A stretch of DNA of 64,000 nt. Origin: Candidatus Sulfotelmatobacter sp. (GTDB taxonomy: Bacteria > Vulcanimicrobiota > Vulcanimicrobiia > Vulcanimicrobiales > Vulcanimicrobiaceae). The position numbers and the translations under genes are program-made. This document shows, piece after piece, positions 5,813 through 15,738 of the stretch. Positions within the stretch are counted from its first letter, which is position 1, and the number at the start of each line of letters is the position of its first letter. The stretch spans positions 1 through 64,000 of the forward strand of contig DATJRY010000015.1 of the NCBI GenBank assembly GCA_035504415.1. Direction: 5' to 3'. The notes beneath the pieces were generated by a model. That model saw only the letters and a program-made list of their open reading frames with translations, searched no databases and was not told the DNA's origin.

Positions 5813-6685
5813 CTAGGGGCCGGTCACCGCGCCGGTCAGGTCGGCATGCGCGTAACGGGCCAGCTCGTCACGCGTGACCAGCCGGCAGTCGCGCGTCCAG
5901 CTCGCGTCGTCCTCGTGGCTCGGGCACCAGCGTGCGGCGCGAAAGTCCAGCCCGTGCAGGTCGACGCCGCGCAGATCGGTGCAGTTGGTGCGGCGCACGT
6001 GGCCGTCCTCGACGGTGACGGCGTCGCTGCACAAGACGGCGTCGCCGATCGTCGCTCCGCCCAGCCGGGCGTCCCGCAAGACGGCCCCGATCAGCGTGGC
6101 GCCGCGCAGATCCGATGCGCCGAAGTCGGCGTCGGCGGCGTTGACGCCGACCAAGTCGCCATCGCGCAGCGAGGTGCCGTGCAGGTTCGTCCCCTCGAGG
6201 TTCGACCCGACGATCTTGATGCCGTCCAGATCTTGACCGTGCAGGTCGAGCCCTTCCAAGTTGCAGCCGGTGCACTCGCGCAAGACGGCGTGGCCGGCCT
6301 CCGGTGTGAGGTGCGCGCTCGCGAGACGAACGCCGACGAAGCGAACGCCGTCGATCCGCGCGTTGGCGAACGAGGTGTCGCGCAGATCGGCACCGATGAA
6401 CTTGGCGTTGGTCAGGTCCGCGCCGTCGAAGCGCGCGCCGCTCAGGTCGTCGCCGGTGAAGACGGCGTCGCGCAGGTTGGCGCGCGAGAAGTCGACGCTC
6501 TGAAGATCGTCGCCGGTGAACTTGAGCCCGTGCAGGTCGAGCCCGCGCATGTCCTTGGGCAGTTTGCAGCCGACGCACGAGCCGATCAGCTCGCGGTCGA
6601 ACGCCGATGTGTCGCGAGCGGCGGCCGGCACCGCGGCGGCGAGCAGCCCGGTCACGGCCACGGCGAGAGCGAGGGGGCGGATCAT
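5813..6685 (-). CDS. Secreted pentapeptide-repeat protein with CxxC caps
   Basis: The product has 290 residues: signal peptide (MIRPLALAVAVTGLLAAAVPA), then about 200 residues of pentapeptide repeats (A(D/N)Lxx pattern) expected to form a right-handed quadrilateral beta-helix. Two repeat blocks each start with a CxxC motif (CVGC, CTGC) followed by a GLDLHG signature. The C-terminal part holds further Cys and Trp (RWCPSHEDDASWTRDC). It is the last gene of the blaI-M56 cluster and shares the CxxC-DLHG modules with the C-terminal domain of the M56 protein upstream, which suggests they work together. A strong ribosome site (AGGAGGT) precedes the ATG. The exact role is unknown. Confidence 0.88.
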   Translation of the reverse strand: MIRPLALAVAVTGLLAAAVPAAARDTSAFDRELIGSCVGCKLPKDMRGLDLHGLKFTGDDLQSVDFSRANLRDAVFTGDDLSGARFDGADLTNAKFIGADLRDTSFANARIDGVRFVGVRLASAHLTPEAGHAVLRECTGCNLEGLDLHGQDLDGIKIVGSNLEGTNLHGTSLRDGDLVGVNAADADFGASDLRGATLIGAVLRDARLGGATIGDAVLCSDAVTVEDGHVRRTNCTDLRGVDLHGLDFRAARWCPSHEDDASWTRDCRLVTRDELARYAHADLTGAVTGP

Positions 6686-6744
6686 CGGGACCTCCTATAA
6701 CTATCGAATTAGGTGAACGGGGCAAAAAAGAAGACGGGGCCGGC

Positions 6745-8961
6745 CTAGTCGCCCAGGCTGGTCCCGTGGAGCTGGATCCCGCCGGTACGAGCGCCGTCGA
6801 GGTTCGCGCCGCTCAGGTCGCACCCGTCGAGGATCGCGCCGGTGAGGTCGGCGTTGGACAAGTTCGTGTGGGAAAGGTCGACACCGGTGAAGTGGACGCC
6901 GTTCAGTCGCGCGCCGGCGAGGTTCGCGCCGCGCAGGTCGACGCCGCTGATGACGATCCCGTGCAGGTCTTGACCGCGCAGGTCCATGCCGTGCAGATCG
7001 CAGCCCACGCAGCTGGCGACGACGTCGCGCAGGCTGGTGCCGCGCAAGCTCGTCCCCAGCAGCTCGACGCCGGTCAACGTGATGCCGTGCAGGTTGGCGT
7101 TGTCGAAGTTCGCACCGCGCAGCTCGACGCCGCTCAGCGTCGCGCCCTCGAGGTTGGCGCCGGTCAGGTCGGCGTCGCGCAGATCGACGCCGTTGAGGTT
7201 CACGTGCGCGAGGTTCGCGCCGCGCAAGTTGGCGCCGCGCAGGTCGTCGCCGGTGATGCTCAGACCGTGCAGGTCGACTCCTTGCAGGTTGGCCTGACGC
7301 AGGTCGCAGGCGGCACACGCCTGGATCAAGTCGCGCGACCAGTGCAGGTGCGCGGGGCGGTGCGCGTGCGCGTCGCCGTCCAGGTCGTCGTCGGCGACCT
7401 GCCGGGGCAGTCCCTTGAGCGACGCCGCGACTTCCTTGGACACGTCGTGCGCGACGCCGGCACCGACGCTGCGCGCGATCTGGGTGGCCAGGTGCGTGCT
7501 CCAGGCGACCGCGCCGGCCGCCTCGGAGGCGGGCGTGGCGACCGTGCGCGCGGTCTCGGCCGCCACGCGCGCGCTGTTCGCGGCGACGTGCGAGGCGGCT
7601 GCCGCGGCGTGCTCCTTGGCGCGCAGCTGCGCCGCAGCCGCTTGCGCCTGGGCGGTGGCGGAGGCCATCGTGTCGGCCTTCGCGTCGAGCGGCGTGCTCG
7701 GCTCGCGTTCGACGATGTAGACGTGCTTGGTGATGACGCGCGGCGTCGCGACGGCGAGCGGGGCGAGCGACGCGGTGACGCGCGCGGGGGCCGGCGTGTA
7801 CGCCGTCATCGGCGCGGTCATGTCGCCGGTCGGTGCCGGCGGCAGCTCCACGGCGGGGGCGGCCGTCGCGACCAGCGCGACCGCGGCGCAGCCGGCGATG
7901 GCCATGCCCAGCGCGGTGGCCGGCGAGCGGTGCAGACGCGCGCGATTCTTGTCGAGCAGCTGCTCGATGCGCACGCTGATCTGCTTACGCGTCAGCAAGG
8001 CACCCGGCGCGACGACGGCGTGCTCGGGCATGCGCATCTCGCGCGCCAGCTTCCACAGCGAGGTCGCGTATTGGTGCGCGGCGCCGGTGCGATCGACCAC
8101 GGCGTCGTCCGAGGCGATCTCGCGCTCGAGCGCGATGCGGCGGCCGACCAGCCACACGATCGGGTTGAACCAGAAGATGCGCTCGATCGTGCGCTGGACC
8201 AGATTCGTCCAGTCGTCGTAGCGGCGCAAGTGCGCGTGCTCGTGCAGGATCAGCTGCTCGATCGCGGCCAGACCGTCGGCCGTCGCGAGCTCGGTCGGGA
8301 TCAAGATGACGGGGCGGCGGAAACCGATCGCCACCGGTGTCTCCGTCTCGTACGAGAGGCGCAGGTAGATCTCGCGGCCGGGGCCGATCTCGGTCAACCA
8401 CGGCAGCTCTTCGGCCAGCGGGCTGTCGAGCGGGCTCGAGCGGCGCTTGAGGCCGCGCACGCGCTGGACGCTGAACAGCAAGCCGCCCAGTCCGATCGCC
8501 GCGCCGATCAGCCACACCGCGACGACGCCCAGCGCGACGTCGCGCGAGAGCATCGGGACGCTGTCGGCGATCGCGACGCGCACGTCGTGCAGCCGCTCGA
8601 CCGGGGTGGACGCGATGCCGGGCGCCGGCGCGACGGCGCGCGTGTGCGCGGCGGGCGCGCCGTGCGCGGCGCCGCGGGTGCGATCGGCCGCCGCCCGCTC
8701 GTCGCGCGTCGGCGGCGGCACCGACCAGCTGCCGGCGGGAGCGGTGTGCGCGACGTGCGTGCTATGGAGGAGCGAGGTCGCGATGCCGAGCACGGGCATC
8801 GCGCCGGTCGCGACCAGAGCGATCGTCCACAGCAGGTGCCGGGTCGCGGCGGTCAGAGCCAGCGTTCGCGTCGCCACGAACACGCAGGCCGCCAAGATCG
8901 CACCGAGGACGACGCTCGCGACGACCGCGTACAACGCGACGCCGACGATCGCCTCGAGCAT
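6745..8961 (-). CDS. M56 (BlaR1/MecR1-like) membrane protease with C-terminal pentapeptide repeats
   Basis: The product has 738 residues. The N-terminal half is a BlaR1-type metalloprotease: membrane segments near 5-30, 40-65, 143-165 and 348-370, zinc motif HEHAH at 240-244, and EIASDDAVVD at 281-290 as the second zinc-ligand region. In known systems the protease, once its sensor domain is engaged, leads to destruction of the BlaI repressor. Instead of a penicillin-binding sensor, the C-terminus has an Ala-rich helical stretch (425-515), a His-rich segment (531-540) and about 180 residues of pentapeptide repeats (550-735) with two CxxC motifs (CAAC, CVGC). It starts 1 base after the blaI stop. 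The inferred role is an inducible sensor whose extracytoplasmic part is a pentapeptide helix; the ligand is unknown. Confidence 0.9.
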   Translation of the reverse strand: MLEAIVGVALYAVVASVVLGAILAACVFVATRTLALTAATRHLLWTIALVATGAMPVLGIATSLLHSTHVAHTAPAGSWSVPPPTRDERAAADRTRGAAHGAPAAHTRAVAPAPGIASTPVERLHDVRVAIADSVPMLSRDVALGVVAVWLIGAAIGLGGLLFSVQRVRGLKRRSSPLDSPLAEELPWLTEIGPGREIYLRLSYETETPVAIGFRRPVILIPTELATADGLAAIEQLILHEHAHLRRYDDWTNLVQRTIERIFWFNPIVWLVGRRIALEREIASDDAVVDRTGAAHQYATSLWKLAREMRMPEHAVVAPGALLTRKQISVRIEQLLDKNRARLHRSPATALGMAIAGCAAVALVATAAPAVELPPAPTGDMTAPMTAYTPAPARVTASLAPLAVATPRVITKHVYIVEREPSTPLDAKADTMASATAQAQAAAAQLRAKEHAAAAASHVAANSARVAAETARTVATPASEAAGAVAWSTHLATQIARSVGAGVAHDVSKEVAASLKGLPRQVADDDLDGDAHAHRPAHLHWSRDLIQACAACDLRQANLQGVDLHGLSITGDDLRGANLRGANLAHVNLNGVDLRDADLTGANLEGATLSGVELRGANFDNANLHGITLTGVELLGTSLRGTSLRDVVASCVGCDLHGMDLRGQDLHGIVISGVDLRGANLAGARLNGVHFTGVDLSHTNLSNADLTGAILDGCDLSGANLDGARTGGIQLHGTSLGD

Positions 8962-11411: not shown

Positions 11412-11540
11412 GGTGCTCCTTGCCGGGAATGAGTGCGGTTGGGCGAGCCTTTCTTCGCCGCGCTTGCGTGCCCTACGTCAGGTATACCAAAGATTTCCTC
11501 GGGGAACGGACCCCGGCGGCGGACGCCGAACTGCCGGGAC

Positions 11541-12533
11541 GTGGCCGAGGAGCGCGCCGAACCGAAGGTCGTCCTGCTGGTGCGGCTGTTGTCCGCGATC
11601 GACGAGGGCCGCTTCAGCTTCGAGCAGCTCAAAGACGAGATCGCCGACGAGAAGCCCCCCAGCACGCGGACGTTGCGCCGCTATTTGAGCGTCCTCTCCG
11701 ATGCGGGCTTCCCGTGGTTCTTCGATCGCGCCAGCGGCACGTATCGGTTCGCGGAAGGCTACAGCCTGCGCCGCTTCAACCTCTCGCACCGCGAGTTGCT
11801 CGGTTTGGTCACGCTCAAGCGGCTCGGCTCGTCGCTGGGCGGCACGTTCGCGACCGCGATCGAGGAGACGACGCAGAAGCTGCTGCGTTCCAGCGACCGC
11901 CGCACCGAAGTCTCGGTCGAGACGACCTCGCTCGCCATTCGCTTCGGCGAGGTCGCCCTCGAGCCCGACGTCGAGCGCGTCTTCGAGCAGCTGCAGGGCG
12001 CGGAGCGCGAACGGCGGCGCGTGAACTTCGGCTACACCGACAAGACCGGCGCGCAGACCAAGCGCAACGTCGACCCGTACGGCTTCATCGTCTCCTCCGG
12101 GCGCATCTACCTGGTCGGTTACGATCACACGCGCGCGGACATGCGCGTCTTCGCAGTCGACAACGTCACCGGCGTCGACGTCACGCCGCGCACGTTCGAA
12201 CGGCCCGCCGACTTCAACCTGGAGGCGTACGGCGCGAACTCGGTCAGCGGCGTCTTCCACGGCGATGCGACGGCCGAGGTGACGGTGCGTTTCTCGCCGC
12301 TCGTCGCCAAGGCGGCGACGGCGACGACCATCGCGCGCCACCGCACGGTGGTGCGGCGCGCCGACGGCGGCGTCGAGATCACCTATCGGGTCGTCGATCC
12401 GCTCGAGATCGTGCGTTGGTCGCTGCAGTGGGGAACCGAAGCCGAGATCGTCGCGCCGCCGGCCGCGCGCCGCGCGGCCGCCGAGATCGCGACCAGCCTG
12501 GCCGGCCGCTACGGGACCGAAACCGCCGGCTGA
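11541..12533 (+). CDS. WYL-domain transcriptional regulator
   Basis: The product has about 330 residues from the GTG at 11541; an upstream ATG in the same frame (11433) would add 36 residues that look non-coding. An N-terminal helix-turn-helix region (RTLRRYLSVLSDAGFPWFFD) is followed by a WYL module (FGYTDKTGAQTKRNVDPYGF, GRIYLVGYDH, RVFAVDNV) and a C-terminal extension. WYL regulators sense nucleic acid or small ligands and act as repressors or activators. It lies divergent to the binding-protein gene and converges with the MgtC gene. Confidence 0.85.
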   Translation: MAEERAEPKVVLLVRLLSAIDEGRFSFEQLKDEIADEKPPSTRTLRRYLSVLSDAGFPWFFDRASGTYRFAEGYSLRRFNLSHRELLGLVTLKRLGSSLGGTFATAIEETTQKLLRSSDRRTEVSVETTSLAIRFGEVALEPDVERVFEQLQGAERERRRVNFGYTDKTGAQTKRNVDPYGFIVSSGRIYLVGYDHTRADMRVFAVDNVTGVDVTPRTFERPADFNLEAYGANSVSGVFHGDATAEVTVRFSPLVAKAATATTIARHRTVVRRADGGVEITYRVVDPLEIVRWSLQWGTEAEIVAPPAARRAAAEIATSLAGRYGTETAG

Positions 12534-13236: not shown

Positions 13237-13388
13237 GGGGCCCGTGTTCCCCGTCTCGCGCCGCCCTCCCGCGGCGCTGGTGCCGGCAACCTCGTGCAGC
13301 AGCACGTGTCATCTGGCTCTCGACCCGACCGTCGCGGTCAAGCGAAACGCCAAGCCGTTCGCGGGCGTTAGAGTAGCCGAGTGTGGTT

Positions 13389-13898
13389 ATGCGTACATTA
13401 AGCGGTGTCTTTGCCTGCCTTCTGATCGCGCTTGGCGCCGGAGCGCTTGCGTCGGCCGACGTGCCGACGGGGCAACCCGTTCAGGGCATTCGTTGCGATA
13501 CGATGGAAGGCTCGGTGTTGCACATCCATCAACACCTTGCCGTGTTCGATCACGGCAAGCCCGTCGGCATTCCGCCCGACGTCGGCCGGCCGCTGATCGC
13601 CGGCTGTTTCTACTGGCTGCACACGCATACGCCCGACGGCATCATCCACGTCGAGTCGCCGTACTTCCGCAGCTTCACGCTCGCGAATTTCTTCGGCGTG
13701 TGGGGACAACCGCTCACGCCGACCGACGTCGCCGGCGCCAAGCCGCGCAAGGGCGAGCACATCGTCACCTGGGTCGACGGCAACCGCTACACCGGCGATC
13801 CGCGCAAGATCGAGTTGACCCAGCACCTCGACGTCACCATCGAAGTCGGGCCGCCGTACACGAAGCCGGCGCCGTTCACCGCCTGGAACGGAAATTAG
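13389..13898 (+). CDS. His-rich secreted protein, possible metal binder
   Basis: The product has 169 residues with a signal peptide ending near ALASA. The mature protein has clustered histidines in two blocks, LHIHQHLAVFDHG (H45, H47, H49, H55) and CFYWLHTHTPDGIIHVESP (C73, H78, H80, H87, E89), plus a second cysteine C36. Such sets suggest binding of copper or another transition metal, though this is inference. Similar conserved hypothetical proteins occur in other high-GC bacteria. A GTG two codons upstream (13383) is an alternative start. Confidence 0.75.
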   Translation: MRTLSGVFACLLIALGAGALASADVPTGQPVQGIRCDTMEGSVLHIHQHLAVFDHGKPVGIPPDVGRPLIAGCFYWLHTHTPDGIIHVESPYFRSFTLANFFGVWGQPLTPTDVAGAKPRKGEHIVTWVDGNRYTGDPRKIELTQHLDVTIEVGPPYTKPAPFTAWNGN

Positions 13899-13918
13899 GC
13901 CGCTGATCCGCTGACGCG

Positions 13919-13948
13919 ACGAAGCCGCCCGGCGCCGGGCGGCTTCGT
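13919..13948 (+). terminator. Hairpin after the His-rich protein gene
   Basis: A perfect 12-base stem ACGAAGCCGCCC/GGGCGGCTTCGT with loop GGCGCC lies 20 bases after the stop. No T tract follows, so intrinsic termination is uncertain. Confidence 0.5.
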
Positions 13949-14163
13949 AACGCGTGGGAATCCGCTCTGCGCTCGACCTCGCCGATCGGCTCGGCCAGGA
14001 CGGCGTCGTACCTCGTCTCGGCGGCGCGGACCCGTCGGATTTCCGCCAAACCCGCGACATCCACCGGCGAGCTTCCCGCGACTCGCCCGCCGGCGCGCAA
14101 CCGGCGTGGACGAATCCTACTCCCGCCGAGCGCCGAGCGCAAGTCCCCGCGCCGCCGGCTGGG

Positions 14164-14371
14164 AAAAAAGCATCGAGGCCGGCCGGGGAACCCGGTCGGC
14201 CTCGAGCGCCAGAGAGTCGATCTGCGCGTGTACTCGCAAGCGGTGCCGCAAGCCAGTCCAGCGTCGTACTCGTGTCGCGAGGTCGCGTCCCCCGTACGGC
14301 TGGCGCCGCACATCGTTCCACCCCTCGCAGCGAGTCTCTCGGCTCACTCGCACGTCGTCTTTCGTTGACGT
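14164..14371 (-). ncRNA. Putative small RNA unit A
   Basis: On the minus strand a promoter-like pair TTGCGT (14406-14401), 17 bases, TAGGGT (14383-14378) would start an RNA near 14371. About 200 bases on, it ends in a terminator with a 14-base GC stem (14174-14187 with 14191-14204, one mismatch) followed by six U (14169-14164). Directly before the terminator lies a 31-base box (14242-14212) that is 27/31 identical to one in unit B, which has the same arrangement. The strand and extent are inferred from these signals. Function unknown. Confidence 0.5.
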
Positions 14372-14423
14372 GATCAAACCCTAACGCACGCAAAACAATC
14401 ACGCAATACACCGCCCCCTCATA

Positions 14424-14437
14424 TCCACAAGAAAGTT
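14424..14437 (-). promoter_or_regulatory. Shared upstream box of small RNA unit A
   Basis: The minus strand reads AACTTTCTTGTGGA, 18 bases upstream of the putative -35 of unit A. The identical 14 bases recur upstream of unit B. It may be a common operator or activator site. Confidence 0.4.
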
Positions 14438-14543
14438 CACTTCTCCACGCCAACTCACACCAACTCACGCAATCCACACCCACCCCCGCTCGAAATCAAA
14501 GCTTTCGGAGCACCCCACCCGTGCTTTCGCGAACGATGCCGCA

Positions 14544-14679
14544 GGCGAGTGATGCACGAGCTGCGCGGGGCACTCGCGGAGCGGCGAGAGCCCGGAGGGC
14601 GGTAGCCGCGGAGCGGTAGTGTTGCGCGCACAGGACGTGCGCGCAACACGTGCCCCGCGCAGCTCGTGCATCACTCGCC
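14544..14679. repeat. Perfect 30-base inverted repeat with inner hairpin
   Basis: The arms GGCGAGTGATGCACGAGCTG(+10) at 14544-14573 and its exact complement at 14650-14679 enclose 76 bases, including a second perfect hairpin (GTTGCGCGCAC at 14621-14631 with GTGCGCGCAAC at 14637-14647). It could be a miniature transposable element or a structured RNA. No transposase is nearby and target-site duplications are not evident. Confidence 0.7.
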
Positions 14680-14695
14680 CGCCACAACGCCCCCG

Positions 14696-14905
14696 AAAAG
14701 CACACGAGCCCGCGCAGAAGGCTGCACAGGCTCGTGGCACGAGAATCGATCTGCGCGCATACTCGCACGCGCGTGGGCGCGGCCAGTTTGGCGTCGAACT
14801 TCGGATCGGTTTCGTTCGTTTCGTTGTGCGGCGTGAGCCGCTCATCGTTCGTTTTCGCTACCGGCGAGCTTCTCGTATCTCGCCCGCCTCCGTTGCCGTC
14901 GGCGT
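14696..14905 (-). ncRNA. Putative small RNA unit B
   Basis: On the minus strand TTGCGC (14940-14935), 17 bases, TATGAT (14917-14912) is a good promoter and would start an RNA near 14905. It ends about 200 bases later in a terminator: outer stem CACGAGCC/GGCTCGTG (14703-14710, 14729-14736), inner stem GCAG/CTGC, then four U (14699-14696). The 31-base box at 14771-14741 just before the terminator matches unit A in 27 positions. A 14-base box AACTTTCTTGTGGA lies upstream of both promoters. Confidence 0.55.
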
Positions 14906-14967
14906 GTTTGCATCATACGAGTGGGCCATGCGGCGCGCAAGAGGAAACTCGCTCCATTGGCCGCTTG

Positions 14968-14981
14968 TCCACAAGAAAGTT
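14968..14981 (-). promoter_or_regulatory. Shared upstream box of small RNA unit B
   Basis: This is an identical copy of the 14-base box AACTTTCTTGTGGA (minus strand), 27 bases upstream of the putative -35 of unit B. Confidence 0.4.
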
Positions 14982-15030
14982 TTGTTATGCACGGCGTTTC
15001 GCAGCATTCCACCGCTTTTGTAAGTGTTTC

Positions 15031-15738
15031 TCAACCGCCGAGATAGGCGGAGACGACGTCGCGGTGCGTGGCCAGCTCGGCGCCCGTGCCGGTGAGGACG
15101 ATGCGGCCGCGTTCCATGACGTACGCGCGGTCGGCGAGGGCGAGGGCGCGTCGGGCGTTCTGCTCGACCAGCAAGATCGAGGTGCCCCGCGCGCGTTCGG
15201 CGGCGATGATGGCGAAGATCTCGTCGACGAGTTTCGGGGCCAGGCCCATCGAGGGTTCGTCCAGCAGCAGGGCGCGCGGATTGATCGCCAGTGCGCGGGC
15301 GATGGCCAGCATCTGCTGTTCGCCGCCCGAGAGGGAGCCGGCCGGGACGTGCCGGCGCGTGCGCAGGATCGGGAAGCGGTCGAGCAGGCCCGGGATGCGC
15401 GCGTAGCCGGCTTGGCCGGCCGCGGCGGCGGCGACGTCCAGGTTTTCCTCGACCGTCATCTGGGCCAGCATGCGGCGGCCTTCGGGGACCAGCACCAGGC
15501 CGCGGCGGACCAGGACGTGGGACGGCGCTCGGGTGACGTCGACGCCGTTGAAGGTCACCGTCCCGGCGCGTTTGGGGATGATGCCGGCCAGCGACATCAG
15601 GAGCGTCGTCTTGCCGGCGCCGTTGGCGCCGACGATGGCGCACAGCGTGCCTTCCTCGAGCTCGACGGCGACGTCGTGAAGTACCTCGACGTTGCCGTAG
15701 CCGGCGCGCAGGCCGGTGACCCGCAGGAGCGCGCTCAT
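15031..15738 (-). CDS. livF: Branched-chain amino acid-type ABC transporter ATPase (LivF)
   Basis: The product has 235 residues, the normal LivF length. Walker A GANGAGKTT (37-45), signature LSGGEQQM, Walker B LLLDEPSMGLAP and the family-typical VRRGLVLVPEGRRM are present. It forms the cytoplasmic ATPase pair with LivG and powers uptake through LivH/LivM. Its start overlaps the livG stop by 4 bases. It is the last gene of the operon, and the small RNA units lie just beyond. Confidence 0.93.
   Translation of the reverse strand: MSALLRVTGLRAGYGNVEVLHDVAVELEEGTLCAIVGANGAGKTTLLMSLAGIIPKRAGTVTFNGVDVTRAPSHVLVRRGLVLVPEGRRMLAQMTVEENLDVAAAAAGQAGYARIPGLLDRFPILRTRRHVPAGSLSGGEQQMLAIARALAINPRALLLDEPSMGLAPKLVDEIFAIIAAERARGTSILLVEQNARRALALADRAYVMERGRIVLTGTGAELATHRDVVSAYLGG

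Follow-up and report, generated by a model that had tools for sequence, protein, structure and literature searches.

AbcR1 and AbcR2, sibling sRNAs encoded in tandem in the Rhizobiales, regulate ABC-transporter mRNAs, among them that of LivK in S. meliloti (PMC4211561). The locus analysed here resembles that system in its tandem, homologous, intergenic sRNA genes and in adjoining a liv operon; however, the AbcR system has two copies only, whereas a pseudoknot and a phased upstream array are features of the units here (PMC4211561). No match of the units to AbcR in sequence or structure was found with Rfam at gathering or relaxed thresholds, and AbcR1/2 may be regarded, by analogy, as the nearest functional analogue, without any claim to membership. 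The sibling sRNAs NgncR_162/163 of Neisseria, which are likewise of tandem type and are tied to amino-acid uptake and metabolism, belong to another phylum, with no sequence relation found, and function is only inferred here (PMC9973317). The preQ1-class pseudoknotted terminator riboswitches share a pseudoknot beside the expression platform, and the loci before OPT genes described below are leader-like; however, the RNA here is much larger, has no downstream gene in the window's genus and lacks an Rfam match (PMC11625349). No papers on small RNAs of the phylum Vulcanimicrobiota were found in the literature searched, and the annotation of Vulcanimicrobium alpinum WC8-2 lists, among RNA genes, rRNA and tRNA only (PMC9758169).

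The window, by which we mean the whole stretch of 64,000 nucleotides analysed (contig DATJRY010000015.1, from a Candidatus Sulfotelmatobacter sp. of the family Vulcanimicrobiaceae), carries three tandem minus-strand units, the third spanning 14142-13914. The earlier note had described two related small-RNA units, each with an upstream box, a promoter with a 17-nt spacer, a 3' box and a terminator; both units and all of these elements were found where it placed them, while the third, diverged unit, which directly follows unit 2 and has no TTCTTGTGGA box, had been overlooked. Searched with Rfam 15, the window held no family at gathering score and nothing related at a relaxed threshold. The features of the locus and its neighbours are as follows.

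15031..15738, minus strand: livF-like ABC transporter ATPase gene (Pfam ABC_tran), just upstream of the array, a conserved neighbour
14968..15015, minus strand: upstream array of unit 1, made of GTGGA-like motifs at intervals of about 10 or 20 bp, the last being the box AACTTTCTTGTGGA (14968-14981); kept upstream of 36 units in this and the sister genus
14912..14940, minus strand: unit 1 promoter, -35 TTGCGC (14940-14935), 17-nt spacer, -10 TATGAT (14917-14912)
14737..14906, minus strand: unit 1 RNA body, predicted start CAC at 14906 (covariance model R1, 129.4 bits; fold z -3.7 against shuffles; covariation)
14870..14876, minus strand: 5' strand of the unit 1 pseudoknot, ACGAGAA, within the P2 loop, partner TTCTCGT at 14745-14739
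14741..14771, minus strand: unit 1 31-base box, the 3' side of the P4/P5 arm and most of the pseudoknot 3' strand (14745-14739); 27/31 against unit 2
14696..14736, minus strand: unit 1 intrinsic terminator with U-run
14424..14437, minus strand: unit 2 box AACTTTCTTGTGGA, its array reaching upstream to about 14483
14378..14406, minus strand: unit 2 promoter, TTGCGT-17-TAGGGT
14208..14372, minus strand: unit 2 RNA body (R1 106.3 bits)
14342-14336 and 14216-14212, minus strand: unit 2 pseudoknot, CCGAGAG x CTCTC
14242-14212, minus strand: unit 2 31-base box
14164..14205, minus strand: unit 2 intrinsic terminator with U-run
14114..14142, minus strand: unit 3 promoter, TTGCGC-17-TAGGAT, without upstream box
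13952..14108, minus strand: unit 3 RNA body (R1 89.8 bits, unit 3 being one of R1's 32 training sequences; pseudoknot GGGAA x TTCCC)
13914..13953, minus strand: unit 3 terminator
13383..13898, plus strand: gene for a 171-aa protein without Pfam match, convergent, a conserved neighbour of the RNA locus
11433..12533, plus strand: WYL/WCX-domain regulator gene, with a homologue next to the RNA locus in other genera

The promoter layout is common to the units, and a promoter is claimed because of that conservation, a generic sigma-70 scan having listed none at these units. The 31-base boxes of units 1 and 2 agree at 27 of 31 positions, as had been noted, against best matches in 300 shuffles that averaged 17.6 and reached 21 at most. 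Between the same two units lies a large imperfect palindrome (14525-14698) with 49-nt arms, 86% complementary, and an inner 28-nt inverted repeat; long palindromic stretches like it also separate units elsewhere, for example after the first unit in loci L072 and L076, and these inter-unit palindromes resemble a REP/MITE-type element.

Each RNA, of about 165 nt before its terminator, is arranged 5' to 3' as a P1 hairpin, a P2 hairpin (GGCGAGC-NNCGAGAA-GCTCGCC), a P3 arm that contains a GNRA-type hairpin, a long P4/P5 arm and the terminator. Among 32 aligned units, 91.8% of cells are paired in this structure with its pseudoknot, against 27-43% with the 3' partners shifted out of register, and 23 pairs have changed on both sides, giving 90 double-change cells where shuffles gave 24. 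The pseudoknot joins the P2 loop to UUCUCG(U/C) of the 31-base box, a segment just 5' of the terminator whose strand reaches slightly into the base of the terminator stem, and it reads ACGAGAA x TTCTCGT in unit 1, CCGAGAG x CTCTC(T)GG in unit 2 and GCGAGAA x TTCTCGC in last-position units. It is paired in 95.5% of cells, with 12 double-change cells against 0.9 in shuffles and at most 67% pairing in slid registers; the pairing was named after the sequences had been viewed rather than predicted blind, and the covariation test is its support. The pseudoknot is preferred to a competing outer helix, CGA x UCG, in which covariation is weaker. Unit 2 likewise folds more stably than its shuffles (z -3.5).

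A coding repeat, or a mobile or palindromic repeat family without any RNA gene, would also produce repeated units, and a large palindromic element does stand between units 1 and 2. However, unit lengths are spread over every phase, gap runs have lengths not divisible by three in 336 of 373 cases, no shared or conserved reading frame is open across the units, the compensatory changes are of RNA type, and the units, each with its own promoter and terminator, occupy one syntenic place; this explanation is almost certainly wrong. The earlier note had held that no protein gene lies behind the conservation and had named a protein-coding repeat as the finding that would speak against RNA genes; indel phases and frames agree in pointing away from one. 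Its proposal of small-RNA units with shared promoter box, 3' box and terminators is strongly supported by covariation and genus-wide recurrence, the covariation analysis that it had suggested speaking for a structured, non-coding RNA. The units can be taken, with very little doubt, as structured ncRNA genes.

A further proposal, that the 31-base box holds an invariant CGCGCAGATCGA core suited to pairing with targets, fared less well. Last-position units carry GCGCTCCTCG and others GCGCATCTCG or GCGCACCTCG, and the box as a whole forms the 3' side of the long hairpin plus one pseudoknot strand: the core lies partly on the 3' side of a covarying helix, its CAGA forms a bulge that is not the same in every copy, and its TTCTCG end is the cis-pairing partner of the P2 loop. 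Because these helix and pseudoknot roles are accompanied by compensatory changes, the conservation of the box is explained in cis and not as an antisense seed. An Hfq-dependent base-pairing sRNA with the core as seed would fit the presence of Hfq in 11/11 genus genomes and the retention of the core in most non-last units; however, with the core largely in helices or the cis pseudoknot, its bulge copy-variable and the U-runs short, such a mode of action seems very unlikely. The bare 12-mer CGCGCAGATCGA is present at 39 places in the genome. On the plus strand of the window, at about 5900-7200, several CGCGCAG(A/G)TCG-like matches lie in a repetitive stretch resembling a repeat-protein gene, and the 12-mer alone is therefore a poor search term. 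A scan of named genomes with the CGCGCAGATCGA pattern also returned many Dyella/Rhodanobacter-type genomes (L081-L135, outside Eremiobacterota), matches that are possibly due to shared coding sequence.

Titration of a protein, by a sponge of the CsrB/RsmZ kind or similar, is another role open to multi-copy, hairpin-rich RNAs in a genus whose genomes all encode CsrA (11/11). The hallmark of CsrB/RsmZ sponges is repeated GGA motifs, typically in loops. However, GGA is depleted in the units (2.3 per unit against 4.3 expected) and is not repeated in loops, an argument that covers the CsrB type, another protein being possible; we hold titration to be highly improbable. 6S RNA, a single long bulged hairpin closing the ends, was also considered and rejected, as no RF00013 match over cut-off was found in the genus and the units form instead a chain of hairpins with a pseudoknot.

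Upstream of the 36 units in this and the sister genus, the GTGGA-like motifs, spaced by about 10 or 20 bp, end in TTCTTGTGGA, and the RNA start follows this box at a distance of either 62-63 or 72-73 bp. The two distances differ by one helical turn, as would be expected of an activator kept on one face of the DNA. Information autocorrelation of the upstream array gave no clear 10-bp peak, and the phasing is therefore read from motif positions. A general promoter element was considered for the box and rejected: outside the arrays, TTCTTGTGGA is near background in the genus, and the other inspected sites lie in coding sequence. The TGTGGATAA-like repeats may be DnaA boxes, but no cluster supporting this was found: exact boxes in genome G005 are mostly pairs 1455 bp apart. 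Such exact TGTGGATAA pairs occur at many places on contig G005:C1 (e.g., 192516 and 193971) and are probably copies of one repeated element.

Tandem arrays downstream of livF were found in all 11 genomes of the genus by DNA search, box search and model R1, with 35 units in total and 2-4 per genome, some arrays ending at contig ends. Since R1 was built from most of these units, their matches to it are by construction; the arrays had come to light beforehand through DNA search or the box, and their recurrence among relatives, for which the earlier note had suggested a search, goes far beyond chance. One mark of sibling sRNAs is the presence of more than one closely related gene within a genome, and this is what every genus genome holds (2-4 units, 11/11). 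As regards another mark, discrete small transcripts, what was observed is the conservation of promoter and terminator. Named genomes with the same arrays are Candidatus Eremiobacterota/WPS-2 assemblies (now Vulcanimicrobiota), and relatives of the RNA apparently occur in three copies in V. alpinum WC8-2, the phylum's first cultivated member. A maximum-likelihood tree grouped the units in part by their place in the array; the grouping is clearest for last-position units, and support is modest. Two such loci are present in each genome of the sister genus (g19); in G028 one is next to the WYL gene, the other next to the homologue of the 171-aa gene. Weak R1 matches of 20-40 bits in other genera (G082, G107, G018 and others) were inseparable from a GC-rich background, which for R1 runs at about 20-30 bits in GC-rich genomes, model E-values being rough.

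In other genera, the same box stands at the same spacing before a different-looking, related pseudoknotted RNA, which often lies between the end of the WYL gene and the start of the 171-aa gene homologue, or just upstream of an OPT peptide transporter. Of 99 family genomes, 36 contain the pattern TTCTTGTGGANNNNNTGTG, almost all of them a single time, and the reversed control had zero hits; one site, L256, does not look like an RNA gene. The distance from box to RNA was 72-73 at all 33 sites measured in these genera. A family model, R2, matched about 60 genomes, often at two loci each, and none outside the bacterial family at E 0.01. Covariation in the family RNA shows clearly when the alignment is fitted to the model, a procedure biased towards that model, and more weakly on a plain alignment. 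Its pseudoknot again pairs the P2 loop with the segment before the terminator (CGTATC x GATACG, ACGTTCG x CGAACGT, ATGTGA x TCACAT), and matched pairs beat 2000 of 2000 cross-pairings, six tails having been delimited by hand. Score alone gives no significant homology between the genus and family RNAs, as R2 and R3 gave 11-19 bits on genus units against 18 bits on control DNA; the best family-model matches in genus loci begin exactly at unit starts on the correct strand. Because start register, box, spacing, locus and pseudoknot topology are taken together, we accept that the two are probably homologous and form one family-wide RNA family. The array in the window would then be an amplified and diverged branch of that family, a conclusion with somewhat weaker backing. 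Two family RNAs stand in tandem at L230 (G011:C171, 2084-2248 and 2444-2606), and tandem duplication is therefore not confined to the window's genus.

The neighbours of these loci vary. Beyond the 171-aa gene, the window holds an MgtC gene, the WYL/WCX regulator and a periplasmic binding protein gene. Homologues of the 171-aa protein (L207-L236) are present in 59 of 61 family genomes in 1-3 copies, and an R1 search of the flanks of their genes found nothing. In genus g44, second loci (L237-L244) place a family RNA and terminator 49-102 nt upstream of the start of an OPT oligopeptide-transporter gene, with just the terminator and a ribosome-binding site before the start codon at L242, and nadA on the other side of the RNA at L237, L238 and L243 among the g44 loci read. 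Further family RNAs lie near an SBP_bac_5 gene, rpsU, an aromatic amino-acid lyase gene or a hydrolase gene. CrfA (RF01527) was rejected as an identity, since L237 reached 33 bits, below the gathering score of 38, leaning on its GC-rich terminator, and the other 11 loci searched gave no match.

The leader position in g44, together with a compact pseudoknot beside, and slightly overlapping, the terminator, invites the reading of a ligand-sensing, riboswitch-like RNA, in which an aptamer coupled to the terminator would act as an attenuator at some loci and as a free-standing sensor in arrays. However, no same-strand gene follows the RNA in the window's genus or at the WYL-side loci, the downstream genes elsewhere are not of one kind (a hydrolase gene, and rpsU, which has a promoter-like sequence of its own), and a strong promoter architecture of its own and tandem repetition are unusual for that class; we consider this reading unlikely. 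A more speculative combination, which we likewise consider unlikely, would make these RNAs an undescribed pseudoknotted sensor class of Vulcanimicrobiota. At some loci it would serve as a leader before oligopeptide-transporter genes; where duplicated, it would form a tandem battery of free-standing, trans-acting RNAs switched on through a regulator reading the helically phased GTGGA array.

Taken together, the best reading is a new family of structured sRNAs, amplified in the window into tandem siblings. Each unit is very probably a stand-alone gene, with a terminator behind a structured, pseudoknotted sRNA of about 165 nt. Its transcription would start at a sigma-70-type promoter, possibly with the help of an activator bound to the GTGGA array, and the pseudoknot may hold the RNA compact. 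To the parts of this explanation that were observed, taken together and leaving the role aside, we assign a probability of roughly 80%. The liv genes in the genus, with OPT and other transporter or amino-acid neighbours elsewhere, suggest a link to amino-acid or peptide uptake, though neighbours vary. The sibling RNAs might regulate such uptake genes in trans, by themselves or together with a protein, and last-position copies may be specialised; by analogy with AbcR, a role in uptake regulation is a tentative proposal.

A covariation-backed, pseudoknotted RNA family without an Rfam match, present family-wide in a little-studied phylum, constitutes a concrete new candidate regulator. Its tandem amplification in one genus, where the tree sets last-position copies apart as a group, offers a natural case of sRNA duplication and specialisation, and as three copies apparently occur in Vulcanimicrobium alpinum WC8-2, expression, structure and function are directly testable.
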